A stretch of 22,891 nt of DNA, taken from the IMG/VR virus record IMGVR_UViG_3300032323_003024, positions 1 through 22,891 of that record. One strand, given 5' to 3'. Source of the stretch: a virus. The notes under the pieces were generated by a model. The model searched no databases, had not been told where the DNA came from, and saw only the letters and a program-made list of their open reading frames with translations. The stretch's first letter is position 1. Every line of letters starts with the position of its first letter. Shown here piece after piece: positions 6,484-18,347 of the stretch. Position numbers and translations under genes: made by a program.

Positions 6484-6505
6484 AAAGGACTCCTAAGAGT
6501 CCTTT
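6484..6505. terminator. Bidirectional rho-independent terminator
   Basis: AAAGGACTC (6484-6492), loop CTAA, GAGTCCTTT (6497-6505) form a perfect 9-bp stem. It is followed by GTTTTTA on the plus strand and, read on the minus strand, by TTTTAATTA. It sits exactly between the convergent ends of the fibre gene (6479) and the minus-strand operon (6510). Confidence 0.9.
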
Positions 6506-6741: not shown

Positions 6742-7374
6742 TTAAGCAGATAAAACGTGTACTGCATGATTATAGTGATTAACACGATCAGCAAGACCAA
6801 TAGTACCACCATTGATTCGCTTAGTCATACCTTCAAAATCACCGGCATCAGCAAATGTATTTAAATCATTTGAATACCAGAACCAGCAAGCAGAGTGTAC
6901 TGCACCACGTGGAGTCTCAAGATATTCTGCAGCTTGCTCAACAGTAATCTCAGCAGATTGTGCAAAGGCTGTATAGTTACTACGGCCAGTTAACTGAATC
7001 AAACCACGACCACAGAATCTCCAACCATCACCTGAAGCTGGATCACCATTACCCATACGATTTGCATAAACTAAGTTAGCAATCTTTTCCGGTTGACGAT
7101 GATATTCAGTTGCATCACGGCCAGCACCAATGAAATACTTTTTGAAGATGTTATTCAATCCATCTGATGAGTAGTTTAAGTTCTCTTTAAGAACTGCATA
7201 ACCACCAGATTCGTGTGCCGTTTGTGCTAGAAAAGAAGCAACTCTACCAACAGTTGTAATTTCAAACACTGGCAATAATTCTACTAATTCATTATACCAT
7301 GTTCCAACACCATATGCGGCGTTAGGTATAACTTGTTGTAGTTTTTCTTGCGTAAAATTAAATTCAAAAGACAT
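6742..7374 (-). CDS. GH19-family endolysin
   Basis: The 210-residue protein matches the glycoside hydrolase 19 (chitinase-like) endolysins of phages: FLAQTAHESGGY (Glu55), LKENLNYSSDGL (Glu64), YHRQPEKIANLVYANRMGNGD (about 91-111, quoted only as pattern), GWRFCGRGLIQLTGRSNY (about 117-134), CWFWYSNDLN and RINGGTIGLADR. In phages this fold cleaves the peptidoglycan glycan strand; Glu55 and Glu64 are candidate catalytic acids. There is no signal peptide, so it would need a holin to reach the periplasm, and two holin-like genes begin this operon. AAGGAAATAAT precedes the ATG. It follows the cyclase gene by 18 nt. Confidence 0.92.
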   Translation of the reverse strand: MSFEFNFTQEKLQQVIPNAAYGVGTWYNELVELLPVFEITTVGRVASFLAQTAHESGGYAVLKENLNYSSDGLNNIFKKYFIGAGRDATEYHRQPEKIANLVYANRMGNGDPASGDGWRFCGRGLIQLTGRSNYTAFAQSAEITVEQAAEYLETPRGAVHSACWFWYSNDLNTFADAGDFEGMTKRINGGTIGLADRVNHYNHAVHVLSA

Positions 7375-7392: not shown

Positions 7393-9423
7393 TTATTTAC
7401 TTGTAGCTCTATAGACACCATCCCAATTTGCTGGTAAGCCTTCATTTATGCGCTCTAGCATATTGATATAGTATTGTTTTAAATCAGTATCATCTTCTGC
7501 TAGTTTTTCGCAGTGGCGTTTAGCTGATGTCCAATCGCCGGCATAATACTTATCTAAAAATGTTTGATGTTTCCAATTTGATTCACCGAGTGTAAATATT
7601 TTGATACCTTCAGTTTTACCTTTAACAGCAATGCAATCTAGTTCTATTACTGGATACTCATCTTTAACGTATTCGGCAGTTAGACTACCTAATACCATTT
7701 TAACTCCGTAGGGCTTGGACTGTCCTTCCAATCTACTAGCCAAGTTAACCGAATCTCCGAGGCAAGTATAGTCAAAGCGTTGGTCTGAACCCATATTTCC
7801 AACAACAACGGTGCCTGTATTAATACCAAGACCCATACCAAACGCAGGAATACCTTCTTTAGCAATTTCATTATTAAATTCTTCTAAACTATTCATCATC
7901 TGCAACGCTGTACGCACTGCCATCTTGGCATGTTGTGGTTCATCTAGTGGTGCATTCCAAAATGCCATTTGAGCATCACCAATATACTTATCTAGAGTAC
8001 CATTATTTTCAATAATCTTCGCTGTCATCGCTGTCATATAGCGATTCATAATTTTAGTTAAGCCCTGTACGTCTTTGCCATAGTGTTCTGAAATTGTAGT
8101 AAATCCTCGAACATCTGTAAACATAATCGAGAGTTCTCTTGAATCACCACCGAGCTGTAACAATTCTGGGTTTCGTTGAAGTTTTTCAACCAATGCTGGG
8201 CTGAGGTATGTTCCAAATTGTTTTTTGATTTGGAGCTTTTGGCGCAATTCAACAAGGAATTTGACAACGTATCCGTGGAAACTAACGAGCGTGAGGGTGA
8301 GTATAGGGAATACAGCATCAAGTAAATAGCTTGATCGAACAAATAATTCAATACCGGCATAGTACGTAGCTCCTGATAAAAGTAATGCAAATACATAACC
8401 ATGCGTAAATCTCGTTAGAATTAATGTGATAATACAAATTGCAATAATGTATAGTAACTCTGCACCTAACGCCCAATCAGGTCTCGATATATTTTTACCT
8501 TCAATTAACGTATCCAAGATTGCTGCTTGAAGATAATGCGGATACACTCCACCTGTTGCAGTAGCTACTGGATTATTGAGTCCCTTTGCAGTAAGACCAA
8601 CAATAACAATACCACCATTAAAATCTTTTGGTAACTTTGCTGCAGAGTGTTCAATTGGTTGACTAGACCAATCAATCCAAACTCTACCAACTTCATCTGT
8701 TTGTATTTTTCTAAACTGTGGAATGCGTACTGCTTCAATTAAACCTTCATTAACTTTTACTTGGAAACTTGGATCGCCACTTGCAACTCTTAATGTTTCA
8801 AGTGTGATGGAAGGATAGAGTTGTCCATTTGATTGTACAACCATTGGTACTCGTCTGGTGACGCCATCGATTTCTGGCAATGTGTTAACAACGCCAATCC
8901 CAGCAGCACTACTATTAAACTCTTTAATATTAGGTTGAATGCTTTCATAAACTATTCCTGCATTTTCTCCACCTATGACTGATACGCCAGGTCTAAATGG
9001 AATTCCCTTTTGAGGACCAGTTGATCCGGCTTGTGGTAATACAACTGGATACTGTTTAAGTACAGACGTTAACTTATCATCTTGACCAAAGCGATCACGC
9101 TCAGGCATATAAACATTAAAAACAACCAGCCCAGCACCACGCTGATACAGATCACTAATGAGTTGGGCATATTGTCCGCGAGGGAATGGAAATTGTCCCT
9201 TTTGTTCGAGTGTTTGTTCATCAATATTCACCACATGTATTTGTTGAGAAGTTACTTTGGGTTGACTTGTTACTAAGGTATCAAAGTATCGCAGTCGGAT
9301 AGATTCCACAAATGATGGATCCACAATGCGTATAGACAACAAAAGCACTAGGGTTACTAGTGCTAACCACGGAGATAGTAATTTCTTACTTTTGAATAAT
9401 GCTAATAGTCGTTGTGCCACCAT
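7393..9423 (-). CDS. CHASE2-domain class III adenylate cyclase
   Basis: The 676-residue protein has an N-terminal membrane helix (about 16-34), an extracytoplasmic CHASE2 sensor domain (about 40-310, including VNIDEQTLEQKGQFPFPRG), three membrane helices (about 320-390) and a C-terminal class III nucleotidyl cyclase domain (about 425-610). Catalytic residues are intact: metal-binding Asp437 (FTDVRGF) and Asp483 (YIGDA), adenine-selecting Lys479 and Thr553 (DYTCLGD), and transition-state Asn560 and Arg564 (NLASRLE). ATP-to-cAMP conversion is thus predicted. A short C-terminal extension (about 615-676) looks TPR-like. It overlaps the FecR gene by 38 nt; FecR-CHASE2 pairs are common in bacterial genomes. 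AAAGGTGAAC precedes the ATG. Such a full sensor cyclase is very unusual in a phage. Confidence 0.93.
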   Translation of the reverse strand: MVAQRLLALFKSKKLLSPWLALVTLVLLLSIRIVDPSFVESIRLRYFDTLVTSQPKVTSQQIHVVNIDEQTLEQKGQFPFPRGQYAQLISDLYQRGAGLVVFNVYMPERDRFGQDDKLTSVLKQYPVVLPQAGSTGPQKGIPFRPGVSVIGGENAGIVYESIQPNIKEFNSSAAGIGVVNTLPEIDGVTRRVPMVVQSNGQLYPSITLETLRVASGDPSFQVKVNEGLIEAVRIPQFRKIQTDEVGRVWIDWSSQPIEHSAAKLPKDFNGGIVIVGLTAKGLNNPVATATGGVYPHYLQAAILDTLIEGKNISRPDWALGAELLYIIAICIITLILTRFTHGYVFALLLSGATYYAGIELFVRSSYLLDAVFPILTLTLVSFHGYVVKFLVELRQKLQIKKQFGTYLSPALVEKLQRNPELLQLGGDSRELSIMFTDVRGFTTISEHYGKDVQGLTKIMNRYMTAMTAKIIENNGTLDKYIGDAQMAFWNAPLDEPQHAKMAVRTALQMMNSLEEFNNEIAKEGIPAFGMGLGINTGTVVVGNMGSDQRFDYTCLGDSVNLASRLEGQSKPYGVKMVLGSLTAEYVKDEYPVIELDCIAVKGKTEGIKIFTLGESNWKHQTFLDKYYAGDWTSAKRHCEKLAEDDTDLKQYYINMLERINEGLPANWDGVYRATSK

Positions 9424-10480
9424 TGTTCACCTTTTGATATAGAGGAGTTCCATCCTGTGTTATATTTATAGCCAGATCAGATTCCCTATTCACAATTATT
9501 TGGGCAGTATGTGTACCTTGTTTAGTTAATATAAGTCTATCATTTTCATCGATACCATAACGTAATCCAGAAGCTTCACTCCAGCCAGGAAGCATAGTAG
9601 TTTGTTCTAGTAAAACTTCTTGACTTGCGGCCAACGCCTTTGTACTTTCATCTAAGATGTTAGGCAATAAATCATTGTCTAATTCATTTAAACCCAATAG
9701 ATCATACTTCAATTCATCTTTATCTAGTGCATCGTACTTTAATAAATCTCTATCTAAAAAGTTTATATCAATCGCCGTTTTATTTTCTGACTTACGTTCT
9801 TCATCCGCTACTTCTTTTGGTGGAGTAATAATGAGTAAGTTATTAATGTTCGCTTGATCTATTGACACTATAACAGGTTTTGATGGCGGTTGATTACTAT
9901 CAGCAACTAATGTAGTTTGATACGCTACATCCATTAACACAGAACCAGCGTTAGTAGAAACTTGAATAGCACCTGTTACGCATGCTTTGTTATCGCATGA
10001 TGGTAACAACATAATTAGTGAACGACCTAATTCATCAACAGTCATAGAGAAGTCAGTACCTCTCACAGCGATTGTTGCTGTAGGTGTTTTAATATCTACT
10101 GCTTGTGGATTTGATTTGGCAATTTGACCACTAGCATACCGAGCAGTCCCCAGTACGACTTTCATAGCGAGTTTGCCTGAACCTTTTTTAGGATCATACA
10201 CGAAGTCATCTATCACGAGCTTTGATTGCTCTGTGATATTGACTGTCGTGTTGTCCTCAAAAGTTAACTTGGCTTTAGCCTTAGCTGTAACAATAGTATC
10301 ATTCATTTCAACTCCACTGCCTACTTTACTAGGAATAGAGTTTTTGTTTCTTACAATTTCAGTTGGACCAGTTTGCTCTGAAACTTTACCAACAGCAGCA
10401 AAATTAGTTTGACTGATTAATAGTAATATTATTAAGATTGCCAGTTGAGTTAACTGTAATGCTTTGTTGTAGTGTACCAC
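9386..10480 (-). CDS. FecR-domain periplasmic protein with curlin-like tail
   Basis: The start is GTG at 10480, supported by GGAG nine bases upstream, and the product opens with a signal peptide (hydrophobic residues 13-23, likely cleavage after NFA at residue 28). Residues about 40-150 form a FecR domain: VGSGVEMNDTIVTAKAKAKL, FEDNTTVNITEQSKLVIDD, VVLGTARYASG and the family hallmark VRGTDF (139-144). A Leu/Asp-rich repetitive linker follows (about 240-280, DLLKYDALDKDELKYDLL). The C-terminus (about 326-364) has curlin-like strands (INITQDG, TTTISIIQK) echoing the neighbouring curlin gene. It overlaps the curlin gene by 77 nt and the cyclase by 38 nt. It probably acts outside the inner membrane as ligand or scaffold for the CHASE2 cyclase; a role as amyloid nucleator is possible. 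Confidence 0.88.
   Translation of the reverse strand: MVHYNKALQLTQLAILIILLLISQTNFAAVGKVSEQTGPTEIVRNKNSIPSKVGSGVEMNDTIVTAKAKAKLTFEDNTTVNITEQSKLVIDDFVYDPKKGSGKLAMKVVLGTARYASGQIAKSNPQAVDIKTPTATIAVRGTDFSMTVDELGRSLIMLLPSCDNKACVTGAIQVSTNAGSVLMDVAYQTTLVADSNQPPSKPVIVSIDQANINNLLIITPPKEVADEERKSENKTAIDINFLDRDLLKYDALDKDELKYDLLGLNELDNDLLPNILDESTKALAASQEVLLEQTTMLPGWSEASGLRYGIDENDRLILTKQGTHTAQIIVNRESDLAINITQDGTPLYQKVNNGGTTTISIIQK
9463..9470 (-). promoter_or_regulatory. Possible internal late promoter for cyclase
   Basis: On the minus strand these bases read TATAAATA, the exact T4 late-promoter core. It lies within the end of the FecR gene, about 40 nt before the cyclase start at 9423. It could give the cyclase and endolysin extra late transcription. 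One 8-mer match in AT-rich DNA is weak evidence. Confidence 0.3.
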
Positions 10481-10997
10481 TCTGTGTCACTCCAATTGTA
10501 TTAGTATCGCCAGTAGCATTAATGATAGCACTTGTTACTCCACTGTTAGTTGAAGTATGAGTGATTGTATTTGAGCTACCGATTACATTAATTTCACTGT
10601 GATGATTTGCACCAGTACCTAAGTTTTGAGTGATAGTGTTATCGTCACCTGACACAACTTGTTTAATAGTAGAACCAGAACATCCAGCAGATGATGTAGT
10701 TCCACAGTTAACAGTTTGAATGTTACCACTACCAGTAGTATCAATAACTACGTTTGTAGAAGCGCCATTAACTACTAAATTAAGTTCATTGTTGCTGCCG
10801 ATCTGATCGATCGTTACAACGTTAGAACCACTTCCAATATATGCCGGGTCTAATGAATTACCAATTCTATTACCACTACCGTCTTGAGTAATAGTAATAG
10901 TTGATGAATCACCAACTTGCTCGATATATACGTCATTTGCATAAACTGAAGACGAAATCACACATAACAAGGCGATGAGTATGTTTTTACTTTGCAT
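10404..10997 (-). CDS. csgA-like: Curlin-repeat (CsgA/CsgB-like) amyloid subunit
   Basis: The 197-residue protein has a signal peptide (MQSKNILIALLCVISSSVYA) and then tandem beta-helix-like repeats with N-x-I-x-Q-x-G spacing: DVYIEQVGDSSTITITQDG, NVVTIDQIGSNNELNLVV, STIKQVVSGDDNTITQNLG, SEINVIGSSNTITHTS and NLNNITINQSN. This resembles the S-x5-Q-x-G-x-N-x-A-x3-Q repeat of curlins, which are secreted unfolded through CsgG and assemble into amyloid fibres on the cell surface. Two cysteines (98, 106) flank a short insert between repeats, which is unusual for curlins. The gene overlaps CsgG by 11 nt, as expected for a dedicated substrate. Whether it is the major subunit or a nucleator cannot be told. 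Confidence 0.87.
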   Translation of the reverse strand: MQSKNILIALLCVISSSVYANDVYIEQVGDSSTITITQDGSGNRIGNSLDPAYIGSGSNVVTIDQIGSNNELNLVVNGASTNVVIDTTGSGNIQTVNCGTTSSAGCSGSTIKQVVSGDDNTITQNLGTGANHHSEINVIGSSNTITHTSTNSGVTSAIINATGDTNTIGVTQSGTLQQSITVNSTGNLNNITINQSN

Positions 10998-11793
10998 TTC
11001 CTATGTTTTCCTTGTTTGGTTTTGGTTTGAATTTCCAAATACCTTTCTTTTCTCCGTCCATAATCATTTCATACACTGCTTGTTCAATTGCTACTCTAAC
11101 AGCGTACGTTGTAGGTTCGTTAAGTGCAGTACCACTTTCTAATTCGAGTGATTTAGTTCCCTGATCAACAAACCTTAGTACTCCAACATTATGAGCTGTA
11201 CTGTAAATCGTCTTACTCACAGCATTGCTCAACAAAATCTCTCCACTATTCACGCTTATTAAGCGAAGAGATATAACAACTTCATCTACACGATATTGCT
11301 CACTTCCACCAATTCCTAAAAATCTAGCGCCATTACCACCAGATCTAATATTAGTATCATAACCTATAATACCACCTTCAAGCATGACACCTGCTACTAT
11401 CAATGGCTTTAATGGTTTAGCTTCTTTTCCTTCGTAAACTTCACGTTGATTACGAATCAATTGTCTTTCTTTTATAAGATTGTCTAAACCTACACGTTCA
11501 ACAACCCTAAACCAATTCTTACTATCTTGTAAAGATTTAATTAGAAATGTTTCACCACCTTGAGTAACTGCAGATGAGAATAATGCTAATCTATCACTAG
11601 ATTTCTTTTGTCCAGTTTGATCTTTAAAACTATAAACCGCAATTGCAATTGGTGGTCCATCTAATTCAGGTAATTTTTCTATCATACTCTGGCGCGGAGT
11701 TAACTTAACTGGTTCTTCCTGTGCTAATTTCATATGAATATTAGCACATCCAGTTAATACTACTACAGAGAGTAATAAAAACAAATTACGCAT
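10987..11793 (-). CDS. csgG: CsgG-family outer-membrane secretion lipoprotein
   Basis: The 268-residue protein is a clear homologue of CsgG, the nonameric outer-membrane pore of the curli (type VIII) system, and is close to its usual length (277 in E. coli). It has a lipoprotein signal with lipobox LTGC (Cys16) and the CsgG core motifs AVYSFKDQTGQ (52-62), LIKERQLIRNQRE, MLEGGIIGYDTNIRSGG, GARFLGIG, QYRVDEVVISLRL and SGEILLSNAVSKTI. In the constriction loop, Phe72 matches E. coli mature Phe56, but the Tyr51 and Asn55 positions differ (Ser/Asp and Leu), and the loop is one residue longer, so pore selectivity may differ. Its ATG overlaps the stop of the barrel gene (TAATG). Confidence 0.95.
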   Translation of the reverse strand: MRNLFLLLSVVVLTGCANIHMKLAQEEPVKLTPRQSMIEKLPELDGPPIAIAVYSFKDQTGQKKSSDRLALFSSAVTQGGETFLIKSLQDSKNWFRVVERVGLDNLIKERQLIRNQREVYEGKEAKPLKPLIVAGVMLEGGIIGYDTNIRSGGNGARFLGIGGSEQYRVDEVVISLRLISVNSGEILLSNAVSKTIYSTAHNVGVLRFVDQGTKSLELESGTALNEPTTYAVRVAIEQAVYEMIMDGEKKGIWKFKPKPNKENIGNAK

Positions 11794-13646
11794 TAGAATT
11801 TAATTTTTAAGTTCGCGCTTACAATATTACTTGTTGTATTGTTAATCCAATTTTTACCTAGGCCAACAGTAAACATGAGATTATCTTCGATTTTAGACAC
11901 ATTTAAAACGGCTTCTTTTACACCACTTGTAGTTCTTGCAAACTCAGTGGTAATTTTAGCATCATAAACTTTAGCACTGTATGATACACCAACTTCACCA
12001 ACTGTGCCGGTTGTATTTTTAGCAATCATTGATTGCGCTGACTCAACACTTCCGCTTTCAGTTACTGCAGGTGTATTAACTTTATAAACAGAACCACCAA
12101 CGAATGGGCGGAATCCTTCAACTGATGGTGTGTATGCTCTTGTGCTTAACCAAGTCATATTGCTTTTATTTGAATAATCATTTGCAAATGGACCAATGGT
12201 TCTATTGTAACGTGATGTAGTATTAACTCTAGCTAAATCGTTTTGAATTGTGAATCCGTTTAACTCAACATCAGCGTATACACCAACGTGTGTTCCAGTT
12301 AATGAAGCGTTATTTGTATCACGACCATCTAATCTACTAGAAATTTTATTGACTTGAAAACCAACGATCAAATCTGGATTAACGTCAGTTTCATATGCAA
12401 AACCTGCAATTGAAGTAGTTGCTCCATAACTGTTTTGGCCAGCGTACTTAATTCCAGTAACATTAATCGCCATTCTTCCATGCTCAGATGCAACACCGTA
12501 CTTAGCACTATTGCGATTTAAGTTACGATAAATTCCAGATCTAATAATATCAAATTGCTCAGCTTGGTCTGCCCGGCCAGAAAAACTATCGTTAGCAGTA
12601 GATGTAGCAATAACGTTAAATGATTCAGTCGTTTGAGTTGTAGAACCCTCTGTAGTAACTATTGAATCATCACTGTACGTGGTTGTTGTTACTGGTGTAG
12701 TTGAGATAGTTCTAATCCAAGGGGTATTAACACTCGTTGTTATAGTTCTATCAATTGTTTGCAATCCACTTACTTTACTATTTGCATAGTTAAATGATGC
12801 TGTAGAAGTAGGACTTTGATTTGCATCAACTATTTCTGCAACAATAATATGATTGTATGATGTAGTACTTACAACTGTTGGTGCACTTGGAGTACTTGGT
12901 GGAGGTGCTGAAGGCGCAGTATCATTGTTTGGAGCAACTGCACCAAAAGTTTGGCCATTCTTCGTTGTACTTCCTTGCACTTCATCAATGTATAGGATTG
13001 GACTTAATGCTGTATCACCTAAATTGAATACACCGAAACCTAATAAGTAATCACCGCTTTCAGTAACATTGAATGTTGCAACTTGCCAACCAGTAGCGCC
13101 ATAAGAACCAGTGGAGTAATCACCTGTACCAGGATTAGTAAAACCTAATAAAGCGTATTGGCTATTATAGTTATTAACGACTGTTGTGCCAGTGCTATTC
13201 ACTTTTGTTAATGTAGCAATTGAACCATCATTAAATGGAACGTAGTCAACGCTAACATATTGCCACGCTAAACTGAATTGTGTTCCAGCAGTTAATGTAA
13301 CTGTGCGTGTTACGTAACCAGCAGTTGTTGGAGTTGGATTACCACCACCACCGCTTTGTGCTTGTTGTTGTAGTAATGTAGTGATGCCTGATACGCTAGT
13401 GCTGTTCAATCCTAAAGCACTAGTCATATTATTAAACGATCCATTAGTGATTTGTAGTGTACCCATGTAACTACCATATGGATTAATAACCCATGCATTA
13501 GGACCAGCTTGTAGTGTTTGTGTTCCAGTTGCAGTTAATGTTGAGCTCGTCCAACCGGTGATATTACCGTCTTCAAATCCTAAGTTCTGAGCGTGTGCTG
13601 AAAATGCTAATGTAGCTAATGCAGCAAAAATTGTTTTCTTAAACAT
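11793..13646 (-). CDS. Large secreted outer-membrane beta-barrel protein
   Basis: The 617-residue protein opens with a signal peptide (MFKKTIFAALATLAFSAHA). A beta-sandwich-like domain follows (about 20-235, starting NLGFEDGNITGW, as in carbohydrate-binding or PEP-CTERM-type proteins), then a proline-rich hinge (about 240-262), a Thr/Ser-rich stalk (about 265-360) and a C-terminal barrel (about 375-617). The barrel shows alternating strands (GFAYETDVNPDLIVGFQVNK) and ends in aromatic Phe (NLKIKF), the usual barrel-assembly signal. This is autotransporter-like. Its place between csgF and csgG, with AGGAA before the ATG and a one-base overlap into csgG, makes it part of the module: perhaps an anchor, adhesin or outer-membrane partner of the fibre. 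I do not recognise a named family. Confidence 0.8.
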   Translation of the reverse strand: MFKKTIFAALATLAFSAHAQNLGFEDGNITGWTSSTLTATGTQTLQAGPNAWVINPYGSYMGTLQITNGSFNNMTSALGLNSTSVSGITTLLQQQAQSGGGGNPTPTTAGYVTRTVTLTAGTQFSLAWQYVSVDYVPFNDGSIATLTKVNSTGTTVVNNYNSQYALLGFTNPGTGDYSTGSYGATGWQVATFNVTESGDYLLGFGVFNLGDTALSPILYIDEVQGSTTKNGQTFGAVAPNNDTAPSAPPPSTPSAPTVVSTTSYNHIIVAEIVDANQSPTSTASFNYANSKVSGLQTIDRTITTSVNTPWIRTISTTPVTTTTYSDDSIVTTEGSTTQTTESFNVIATSTANDSFSGRADQAEQFDIIRSGIYRNLNRNSAKYGVASEHGRMAINVTGIKYAGQNSYGATTSIAGFAYETDVNPDLIVGFQVNKISSRLDGRDTNNASLTGTHVGVYADVELNGFTIQNDLARVNTTSRYNRTIGPFANDYSNKSNMTWLSTRAYTPSVEGFRPFVGGSVYKVNTPAVTESGSVESAQSMIAKNTTGTVGEVGVSYSAKVYDAKITTEFARTTSGVKEAVLNVSKIEDNLMFTVGLGKNWINNTTSNIVSANLKIKF

Positions 13647-13654
13647 TTAATTTC

Positions 13655-14092
13655 CTAAAATGCGAATGAGGCGATAGGTACTGTGATGTCTGTCCTATTA
13701 CCATTAGTTTCTGTAATCGTTAGTGTTACGTCTGTACCAGTTTTAACCCATGAAATAGCTGTGCCTTGAAAACTCATATCACCTGAGGTGGCACCACTGT
13801 CTGCAAACATTGCATCTGCAAGTTGCTTTGAAAGTTGAGCATAAATTCTTGACTCAACGTTAACTAAAAATTTAGCAAGGTTAGTATTTCTTGCCGCACG
13901 ATCGGCTGCATCTTGAGCAGCTCTTTCATTATCTCTGAGTTTTTGTGTACGTGTAGCTTCTAGTTGTTCAATGGTTAGAACGTGAGTAGAGTAACCCACA
14001 CCACTAAAAGCTGGGGAATTAAATTGATGAACTAGTTCTGAGGCATTAGCACAATTAACTAGTAGTAGACTTAGTAGAACCCTTTTTAGCAT
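13655..14092 (-). CDS. csgF: CsgF-like curli assembly factor
   Basis: I chose ATG 14092 because the product (145 residues) then begins with a compact signal peptide (MLKRVLLSLLLVNCANA). The mature start, SELVHQFNSPAFSGVG, matches the CsgF N-terminal pattern QF-(R/N)-x-P-x-F-x-G, the segment that plugs into the CsgG channel in E. coli. HVLTIEQLEATR then parallels the LLNSAQAQN segment. An Ala/Arg-rich helix follows (about 57-75), then ESRIYAQLSKQLADAMF and a C-terminal beta pair (DVTLTITETNGNRTDITV) like the CsgF tail. CsgF forms a second constriction on CsgG and anchors the nucleator. The gene overlaps the holin-like gene upstream by 38 nt, and the weak GAAGA upstream suggests coupled translation. 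Confidence 0.85.
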   Translation of the reverse strand: MLKRVLLSLLLVNCANASELVHQFNSPAFSGVGYSTHVLTIEQLEATRTQKLRDNERAAQDAADRAARNTNLAKFLVNVESRIYAQLSKQLADAMFADSGATSGDMSFQGTAISWVKTGTDVTLTITETNGNRTDITVPIASFAF

Positions 14093-14333
14093 CAGCTTTA
14101 TCTTCTTGGTCGCGTAATGATAGAATAACATTAACCTTTTGGTTTAGACGAATTAAGTCATTATCTAACATACGAATACGATCAATCAAATCAACTAACA
14201 CTTTACTTGCTTCACTTGTAACAGGTTTAATTTCTGTTGTTACCCATTGCCAAACGTAATACACAAAGTAGCCAAGACCACCAGCGGCTACAATTGGAAA
14301 ACCATACTTATTAATTAATGATACGATATCCAT
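14055..14333 (-). CDS. Holin-like membrane protein, copy 2
   Basis: This 92-residue protein has one hydrophobic helix near the N-terminus (YGFPIVAAGGLGYFVYYVW, about 10-28), a long cytoplasmic helix (DLIDRIRMLDNDLIRLNQKV) and a charged tail. It is clearly paralogous to its upstream neighbour (both have GFPI, GYFV and a later D-R-I/V...DVIRID-like helix). Such GFPI-type single-helix proteins occur near lysis genes in marine T4-like phages and are probably holins or holin regulators. It shares base 14333 with the upstream gene's stop (TAATG) and overlaps csgF by 38 nt. Confidence 0.75.
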   Translation of the reverse strand: MDIVSLINKYGFPIVAAGGLGYFVYYVWQWVTTEIKPVTSEASKVLVDLIDRIRMLDNDLIRLNQKVNVILSLRDQEDKADAKKGSTKSTTS

Positions 14334-14608
14334 TAATCTCTCCTAGCGTCGGACTGCTCAGCGCGAGCAATACGATCTAAGTCTGGTGGAATACCTAAGG
14401 CGTGAGATACTTTAGTATCGATTCTTATAACATCATGATTCATGGCTGCTACACGTTTATCGAGAGCAACAATAATACCCATCATGCTTTTTACAGAAGA
14501 GGTTACACCGGCTAAGATAAACTTTAGTGTAAGGAAGACGAAATATCCGGCTGCGATTGCTGCTGCAATTGGAAAGCCTACTTCAGCTACTAATTTAAAG
14601 AATTCCAT
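14333..14608 (-). CDS. Holin-like membrane protein, copy 1 (operon leader gene)
   Basis: This 91-residue protein has a hydrophobic helix (VGFPIAAAIAAGYFVFLTLKFIL, about 10-32) and an amphipathic helix with DKRVAAMNHDVIRIDTKVSHALG (about 49-71), closely parallel to the following gene. Paired holin-like paralogues may act as holin and antiholin, but which is which cannot be told. It is the first gene of the ten-gene minus-strand operon, about 35 nt after the TATAAATA promoter. The endolysin, its natural partner, is eight genes downstream. Confidence 0.75.
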   Translation of the reverse strand: MEFFKLVAEVGFPIAAAIAAGYFVFLTLKFILAGVTSSVKSMMGIIVALDKRVAAMNHDVIRIDTKVSHALGIPPDLDRIARAEQSDARRD

Positions 14609-14642: not shown

Positions 14643-14656
14643 TTATTTATAAATAA
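14643..14656. promoter_or_regulatory. Palindromic divergent late promoter
   Basis: TTATTTATAAATAA is a perfect 14-nt palindrome containing the T4 late core TATAAATA on both strands (plus 14648-14655; minus 14644-14651). It lies midway between the divergent starts at 14608 (minus) and 14687 (plus). It is flanked by near-concentric TTGTGAT (14630-14636) and ATCACAA (14662-14668), which could form a long hairpin or two TGTGA-type half-sites. No better promoter is visible for the ten-gene operon. Confidence 0.6.
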
Positions 14657-17592: not shown

Positions 17593-18162
17593 ATGGTAAA
17601 AACATTACGTAAACCTAGTACATGGATAGTAATATTATTAATTGGAATTCTGTCAGTATCAATTATTCCAGCAGTTAAGCAAATTGAAGTTCCACTTGAT
17701 GAAACGGATGTATTTTGTTTAACGAGGAACGCCTATTACGAAGCTAAAGGCGATTCTCAAATGAGTCAGATCGCAGTAACACACGTAGTTTTGAATCGTA
17801 TGAATGATCCAAAATTTCCAAAGAAAGCGTGTGAAGTAGTATACCAAAAGAACAAAGTTGACGCTGAGTCAACAGTGTGTCAGTTCTCTTGGTATTGCGA
17901 TAAGCGTATGATGTCTCGTGTTATTGATCCAATAGGATGGAATCAATCATACCAAGCTGTAGAAAAAGCTATAAAGATTTATTATCACCGAGGTGTAGAC
18001 GTGACTGAGGGATCAACCTTCTATCATGCATACTATGTTAATCCAGGCTGGCACCGATTAGAAAAAGTAACAAAGATTGGTAGCCACATATATTATAAAG
18101 TGAATGAAGAATGTCAGAACAACCAGAAGGCGTGTACACGAAAAAATCTTTCTCGGATTTAA
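17593..18162 (+). CDS. SleB-type cell-wall hydrolase with N-terminal membrane segment
   Basis: The 189-residue protein has a hydrophobic N-terminal segment (about 11-27, WIVILLIGILSVSIIP) and a SleB/Hydrolase_2 catalytic domain: CLTRNAYYEAKGD with candidate catalytic Glu50, AVTHVVLNRM, CEVVYQ, TVCQFSWYCD, and later TEGSTFYHAYYVNPGWHR and IGSHIYYKV. Relatives cleave peptidoglycan as lytic transglycosylases or amidase-like enzymes in spores, bacteria and phages. The hydrophobic segment could be an uncleaved signal anchor. It is a second lytic enzyme, placed with replication genes rather than with the endolysin operon, and overlaps gp33 by 52 nt. Confidence 0.88.
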   Translation: MVKTLRKPSTWIVILLIGILSVSIIPAVKQIEVPLDETDVFCLTRNAYYEAKGDSQMSQIAVTHVVLNRMNDPKFPKKACEVVYQKNKVDAESTVCQFSWYCDKRMMSRVIDPIGWNQSYQAVEKAIKIYYHRGVDVTEGSTFYHAYYVNPGWHRLEKVTKIGSHIYYKVNEECQNNQKACTRKNLSRI

Positions 18163-18347
18163 TTGAGAAGCGTGTAAGAGAAGATCGATCTTCATATCTT
18201 GATGCTATCATTGACGTATGCAAAGAAAGAATGACAGATCCTGAAGATGTAGTGAAGTTATTGAGTAATCCCATTAAAGCTAAGTTAGAAGCTGAGGGTA
18301 TGAATCTTGGTTATTTAAAGAGGACAAATGAATTACCGTTCGAATGA
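18111..18347 (+). CDS. 33: gp33-like late-transcription coactivator
   Basis: This 78-residue protein matches the short gp33-type late-promoter coactivators of T4-like phages: a helical SFSDLIEKRVREDRSSYLDA, then IIDVCKERMTDPEDVVKLL and PIKAKLEAEGMNLGYLKR. In T4, gp33 joins RNA polymerase to the gp45 sliding clamp and, with the gp55 sigma factor, activates late promoters (TATAAATA). T4 gp33 is longer (112 residues). In T4 the local order is 59-33-dsbA-32; here it is 33-59-32, which supports the call. The gene overlaps its neighbours on both sides (52 and 20 nt). Confidence 0.8.
   Translation: MSEQPEGVYTKKSFSDLIEKRVREDRSSYLDAIIDVCKERMTDPEDVVKLLSNPIKAKLEAEGMNLGYLKRTNELPFE

Follow-up and report, generated by a model that had tools for sequence, protein, structure and literature searches.

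Curli-type genes have been puzzling in phages ever since they were noticed in the pelagiphage HTVC008M, and the purposes proposed for them range from host clumping to a lysis pore. CsgF and CsgG were reported in pelagimyophages, for which "sibling capture" was suggested (PMC7029224), while CsgA/B, FecR, a cyclase and a "histidine kinase" before csgF, with no CsgE, were described in uncultivated pelagi-myo- and podophages (PMC9599517). Here we analyze a curli (type VIII) secretion module in a 22.9-kb viral fragment, IMG/VR record IMGVR_UViG_3300032323_003024, positions 1 to 22,891 (the window below means this whole stretch of 22,891 nucleotides). In addition to the known curli parts, the module encodes a predicted classical autotransporter, whose passenger domain is found in relatives on autotransporters and on curlin-repeat tails alike.

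Two isolates provide the closest described modules. HTVC008M has the order smA-smB-CsgF-CsgG-curlin-FecR-cyclase near gp32/gp59, as does the window, where smA and smB denote two small paralogous genes before csgF. The window differs in having the autotransporter between csgF and csgG, in having no second curlin and in a CsgG only 47 to 49% identical to that of the pelagiphage module. Methylophilales phage Melnitz has the same genes as the window, all annotated except smA/smB (PMC9004378), but lacks the autotransporter, the slot being occupied by a second curlin-repeat gene. The same order thus recurs in two phage genomes without the barrel, as well as in relatives that have it. A first-pass annotation of this DNA, made from the sequence alone, noted csgG/csgF as reported in some marine myophages, but not together with a dedicated curlin and a barrel protein. 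The second half of this stands, as the barrel appears so far to be unreported, whereas the curlin is not new, since HTVC008M gp016 is annotated as curlin, Melnitz carries two curlin-repeat genes and CsgA/B are listed in PMC9599517. The core curli module of phages, curlin included, is therefore already known. Four features seem not to have been described in the open papers covered (subscription papers being mostly outside that coverage): the autotransporter, the cargo common to both carriers, the smA/smB pair confined to phages and the tail of FecR. The word "autotransporter" is absent from the three phage-curli papers.

In the window, the module forms an operon on the minus strand running from 14608 down to 6742, in the order smA, smB, csgF, barrel gene, csgG, curlin, FecR, CHASE2-cyclase and GH19 endolysin. 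Neighboring genes overlap by a few to ~80 nucleotides or are separated by gaps of 8 to 18 nucleotides. The features are as follows.

14644..14651, minus strand: T4-type late promoter consensus TATAAATA, an exact match 36 nucleotides upstream of smA and one of three in the window
14333..14608, minus strand: smA, 91 amino acids, N-terminal membrane segment and short coil (phrog_18771, 8.9e-36; 16-row alignment)
14055..14333, minus strand: smB, 92 amino acids, paralogue of smA (phrog_18771, 9.2e-37)
13655..14131, minus strand: CsgF, CsgG-associated plug/chaperone, likely start ATG at 14092 (PF10614, 4.9e-16; phrog_35372, 1.6e-50)
11793..13646, minus strand: predicted classical autotransporter, 617 residues (AlphaFold model; Foldseek matches NalP, EstA, EspP and Hbp; kept in relatives)
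10987..11793, minus strand: CsgG lipoprotein, outer-membrane curli secretion channel (PF03783, 5.6e-53; CsgG in PDB, 1.3e-66)
10404..10997, minus strand: secreted curlin-repeat protein (PF07012 Curlin_rpt, 8.2e-7; signal peptide in the sequence; alignment)
9386..10480, minus strand: FecR-domain periplasmic protein with curlin-like C-terminal strand (PF04773, 1.1e-11; PupR-like model; C-terminal motif)
7393..9423, minus strand: CHASE2 sensor and class III adenylate cyclase (PF05226, 8e-40; PF00211, 8.9e-21; catalytic residues)
6742..7374, minus strand: GH19-type endolysin, last gene of the transcription unit (phrog_181 endolysin, 1.2e-76)
6484..6505, no strand: two-way terminator-like hairpin ending both the operon and the facing tail-fibre gene

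The protein between csgF and csgG had been read as a large outer-membrane barrel, and structure prediction bears this out. The AlphaFold model contains one helix (361-374) and exactly 12 strands (391-616), predicted with high local confidence (block-mean predicted local distance difference test [pLDDT] of ~81 to 94 in the barrel, and ~90 for most of it). The best solved matches in Foldseek, namely, EstA (2.1e-9), NalP (2.9e-9; template-modeling score of 0.77 by target length), EspP, Hbp and BrkA, are all autotransporter translocators. With a signal peptide (1-20), a passenger (21-254), a stalk (~258-358), the helix, and a 12-strand C-terminal barrel ending in an aromatic residue (F617), the modeled protein is a classical (type Va) autotransporter. 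This assignment is based on structure and not on the PF03797 profile: the window's protein matched no Pfam family, PF03797 included, and a profile of the barrel alignment found nothing among PDB sequences at E up to 1, so that the fold search alone gave matches. NalP, EstA and EspP share its signal peptide, passenger, helix and 12-strand translocator, but identity to them is only ~10 to 17%, and the window protein is phage-encoded and has a passenger in common with curlin-repeat proteins. By this model, the passenger would face the outside of the cell.

A scan with the barrel alignment gave 40 loci, nearly all within the curli module, where the gene follows FecR in some and separates csgF from csgG in others. 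As the alignment also caught proteins matching by their passenger only, with curlin tails (loci L205, L213, L218 and L243), we recounted with a barrel-only profile, which found 46 distinct autotransporter proteins of more than 350 amino acids in 62 loci, some of these being overlapping stretches of one contig; csgG was in the same locus for 51. Two relatives in the same module slot are giants with repetitive TGNVTN passengers (L146, 12898-17232, 1,445 amino acids; L155, 12997-16365, 1,123 amino acids). Outside the curli context, the freshwater cyanophages DSL-LC03 (L064, 7143-8792) and DSL-LC02 (L065, 6933-8792) carry an autotransporter relative directly after endolysin/lysozyme genes; no csgG was detected in these contigs, by a search that had no positive control.

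The passenger is what links the two carriers. It is 47 to 55% identical to the N-termini of eight proteins with differing C-termini, and 48 to 55% identical, over 210 to 302 residues, to domains on unrelated barrels and on curlin-repeat proteins. Curlin repeats come after this domain in L205, L213 and L218, whereas a barrel does so in L147, L219, L221, L250 and L146 (74% identical). The window barrel, for its part, is 52 to 60% identical to the barrels of L004-L007 and L021, whose passengers are unrelated (~20%). These sequence comparisons show exchange of passengers between carriers. The slot between FecR and the cyclase commonly holds an N-terminal domain followed by curlin repeats, for instance PA14 plus curlin in HTVC008M and F5/8-C plus curlin in L010, and a Pfam scan of 50 slot proteins found F5/8-C in 12, PA14 in 9, Curlin_rpt in 16 and Autotransporter in 4. 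That scan also yielded an amidoligase-like member and an HATPase-like one, perhaps the large non-secreted slot proteins of L268 (15859-17835) and L163 (15144-17018). In a census of 26 CsgG loci flanked by at least 9 kb in both directions, eight had an autotransporter, six a cargo-curlin fusion and none both; some loci outside this set (L033, L034) have the two together. Taken most simply, these sequences mean that exchangeable domains, often of a carbohydrate-binding type, are displayed by the module on either of two carriers.

Linkage within the module is tight. In the same 26 loci, CsgF, curlin, FecR and cyclase were each present in all 26 and smA/smB in 23, while among 32 smA/smB loci the cyclase was found in 32 and CsgG in 28; being the best matches of the scans, these loci are biased towards relatives of the window. 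In the IMG/VR scans, CsgG relatives occurred in at least 591 stretches, and relatives of smA/smB in at least 583. The largest contigs with the module reach 364 kb, and T4 Gp23 was found in 6 of the 17 tested, including those of 364, 343 and 337 kb. Bacterial curli loci have CsgG, CsgF and curlin repeats in common with the window, but the true bacterial csgG loci examined contain neither smA/smB nor the module autotransporter. Among 80 csgG loci from bacterial genomes, smA/smB occurred in five, all of them contigs of metagenome-assembled genomes in phage gene order (L066, L067, L068, L135 and L145, from Rhodobacteraceae, Flavobacteriaceae, Sphingobacteriales and Flavobacteriales bins). Most of these are shorter than 11 kb, L135 lying on a contig of 142 kb, and they are probably phage contigs in bacterial bins. 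Only one long, chromosome-like contig, from Hyphomonas sp. TMED17 (L081), has FecR and the CHASE2 cyclase beside csgG, and it contains no smA/smB and no barrel.

smA and smB are linked to the module nearly as tightly as CsgF. Both have 91 to 92 residues and an N-terminal hydrophobic segment, and domain searches found no kinase or ATPase domain in either. The published name "histidine kinase" for the genes before csgF is therefore very probably a misnomer, if smA/smB are meant.

The type VIII parts themselves are clear from their sequences, which encode a CsgG channel, CsgF and a secreted curlin. CsgG has the lipobox LTGC and matches solved CsgG structures, the Pfam match of CsgF covers 128 of 132 positions, and Curlin_rpt matches three stretches of the curlin. 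The CsgF signal peptide begins at ATG 14092, where the first-pass annotation had placed the end of the module; CsgF gave only chance matches to PDB sequences by phmmer. The four genes which that annotation had named, CsgF, barrel, CsgG and curlin, are confirmed where it placed them and stand far above chance, and in agreement with it a Pfam scan of the window found no CsgE among the module proteins. Its operon was incomplete, smA, smB, FecR and the CHASE2 cyclase not being mentioned. The secreted curlin may form amyloid fibres. A further CsgG relative, in OR851715.1 (Salmonella phage S.Kent 1-2-1, 1,499 bases), is probably encoded by a bacterial csgG fragment filed as phage.

The two genes after the curlin suggest a sensor. 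The window cyclase retains all six catalytic residues (metal Asp437/Asp483, purine Lys479/Asp551 and transition-state Asn560/Arg564); of these, the metal pair, Lys479 and Arg564 have their counterparts in 112 of 112 relatives. In a second class of module cyclases (motif SYDVLGDAVSTAAR), 48 of the 112, Ser stands for the transition-state Asn, and this part of the family may therefore be catalytically altered. Three loci (L153, L213 and L015) have a second cyclase-like gene upstream of csgF. The predicted structure of FecR matches the cell-surface signaling domain of PupR, and its C-terminus resembles that of curlins: the motif [ILVT]x[ILVT]x?Qx(0-3)end was present in 114 of 138 FecR proteins, 127 of 204 curlins and 31 of 1,470 other open reading frames, in a test run with shuffled controls. 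FecR and CHASE2 genes also meet outside phages. In 27 alphaproteobacterial genomes, 13 of 54 CHASE2 matches had FecR within 3 kb, by Pfam FecR coordinates, against 0.25 expected; CHASE2 cyclase-FecR gene clusters occur in Campylobacterota (PMC9239204); and in Sinorhizobium meliloti the outer-membrane barrel NsrA feeds the CHASE2 cyclases CyaK/CyaD (PMC7529298). Because of this adjacency and these precedents, we read the phage FecR and cyclase as a putative envelope sensor rather than an iron regulator. The NsrA system likewise pairs an outer-membrane barrel with an inner-membrane CHASE2 cyclase in a trans-envelope cyclic AMP (cAMP) relay, but the phage module has separate FecR and curli parts, and the likeness drawn here is one of architecture.

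The operon is probably expressed late in infection, since a late-promoter motif precedes smA in the window and is enriched before smA/smB and csgF in relatives. Within 200 nucleotides upstream, the motif was found for 41 of 272 smA/smB genes (15%) and 19 of 147 csgF genes (13%), compared to 0 of 144 csgG, 1 of 198 curlin and 2 of 135 FecR genes and to 1.4% of random stretches.

The surrounding genes place this late-type operon in a T4-like genome, as had been claimed from the sequence: gp33, gp59 and gp32 flank it on the opposite strand, and the window gp32 is nearest to that of Melnitz (57%), followed by HTVC008M (56%). At 17593-18162 and 18111-18347, a cell-wall-hydrolase-like protein (phrog_938 endolysin) overlaps gp33, and the window thus has two lysin-like genes, this one and the GH19 gene. 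Near its left end, among plus-strand phage genes, lies a collagen-like protein with GPPGPxGPPGPQG repeats (913-1482).

Exchangeable, adhesin-like cargo on either carrier, in a module spanning T4-like phages, narrows the purpose to surface display. We propose, with a probability of roughly 0.5, that the infected cell displays an adhesin late in infection under trans-envelope cAMP feedback. Late in infection, the phage would cause its host to assemble curli-type fibres and to expose an adhesin at the cell surface, carried by the autotransporter in the phage of the window and by curlin tails in relatives. Through the displayed domain, the infected cell would be held to neighboring host cells or to surfaces bearing glycans, which would bring released virions into contact with new hosts. 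FecR and the CHASE2 cyclase would form a trans-envelope sensor of the state of surface assembly, perhaps via the curlin-like tail of FecR, with an output of cAMP that would reach the host's own cAMP receptors. In a stronger and doubtful version, the display would sense itself: the FecR tail would cap or contact the growing amyloid or the autotransporter and switch the cyclase, cAMP would reprogram the host, and adhesins would swap carriers freely.

Several observations weigh against the proposal of adhesin display. Among the 26 census loci, 12 have neither an autotransporter nor a recognized cargo-curlin fusion. The window passenger has no Pfam match and is modeled poorly (pLDDT below 50), and its putative carbohydrate binding is suggested by the cargo of relatives. 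The FecR tail matches the curlin-repeat profile weakly (best E of 0.018) and lies in a low-confidence region of the structure model. No clumping was seen in Melnitz-infected cells (PMC9004378). Finally, 20 phage records that have the module or the barrel yielded no protein binding cyclic nucleotide monophosphates, and for this reason cAMP would have to act on host receptors.

The same fibres and displayed domain might instead hide receptors, so that competing phages could not attach to the infected cell. Such superinfection exclusion or surface masking, already proposed in PMC9599517, is compatible with surface-displayed, exchangeable passengers, which would fit diversification against competitors. 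We nevertheless consider it unlikely, since a late-type promoter is late for exclusion, exclusion proteins are usually single small genes, and neither the carbohydrate-binding cargo nor the cyclase would be explained.

Less credible still is a role in lysis control, in which the envelope would be depolarized by the CsgG/CsgF pore, or by smA and smB acting as a pair of holins, so as to time lysis with the adjoining endolysin. A lysis pore was proposed for the Melnitz module (PMC9004378), the window has a GH19 endolysin gene next after the cyclase, GH19 also lies near the module in a few relatives, and smB has a weak similarity to holin phrog_4898 (0.0012 over 18 residues). Lysis, however, has no need for curlin, FecR, cyclase or carbohydrate-binding cargo, all of which are conserved, and just 1 of the 26 CsgG loci has GH19 near enough.

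Import of nutrients, the CsgG channel admitting larger molecules to the periplasm for phage production, was suggested for pelagiphages (PMC7029224 and PMC9599517) and agrees with the missing CsgE gate, but the conserved CsgF plug, the secreted curlin and the cargo proteins point outwards and the module has no transporter, which makes it very improbable. That a bacterial curli operon was joined to a phage contig by misassembly, a worry raised in the first-pass annotation, has a negligible chance of being true: all that speaks for it is that CsgG, FecR and the cyclase descend from bacteria, the same module and order are found in dozens of independent contigs, in the isolates HTVC008M and Melnitz and in hundreds of viral contigs, several with T4 Gp23, and smA/smB are not seen in true bacterial csgG loci.

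If adhesin display under cAMP feedback is true, lytic phages are able to reshape the exterior of a dying cell and bring with them a cAMP sensor for the task.

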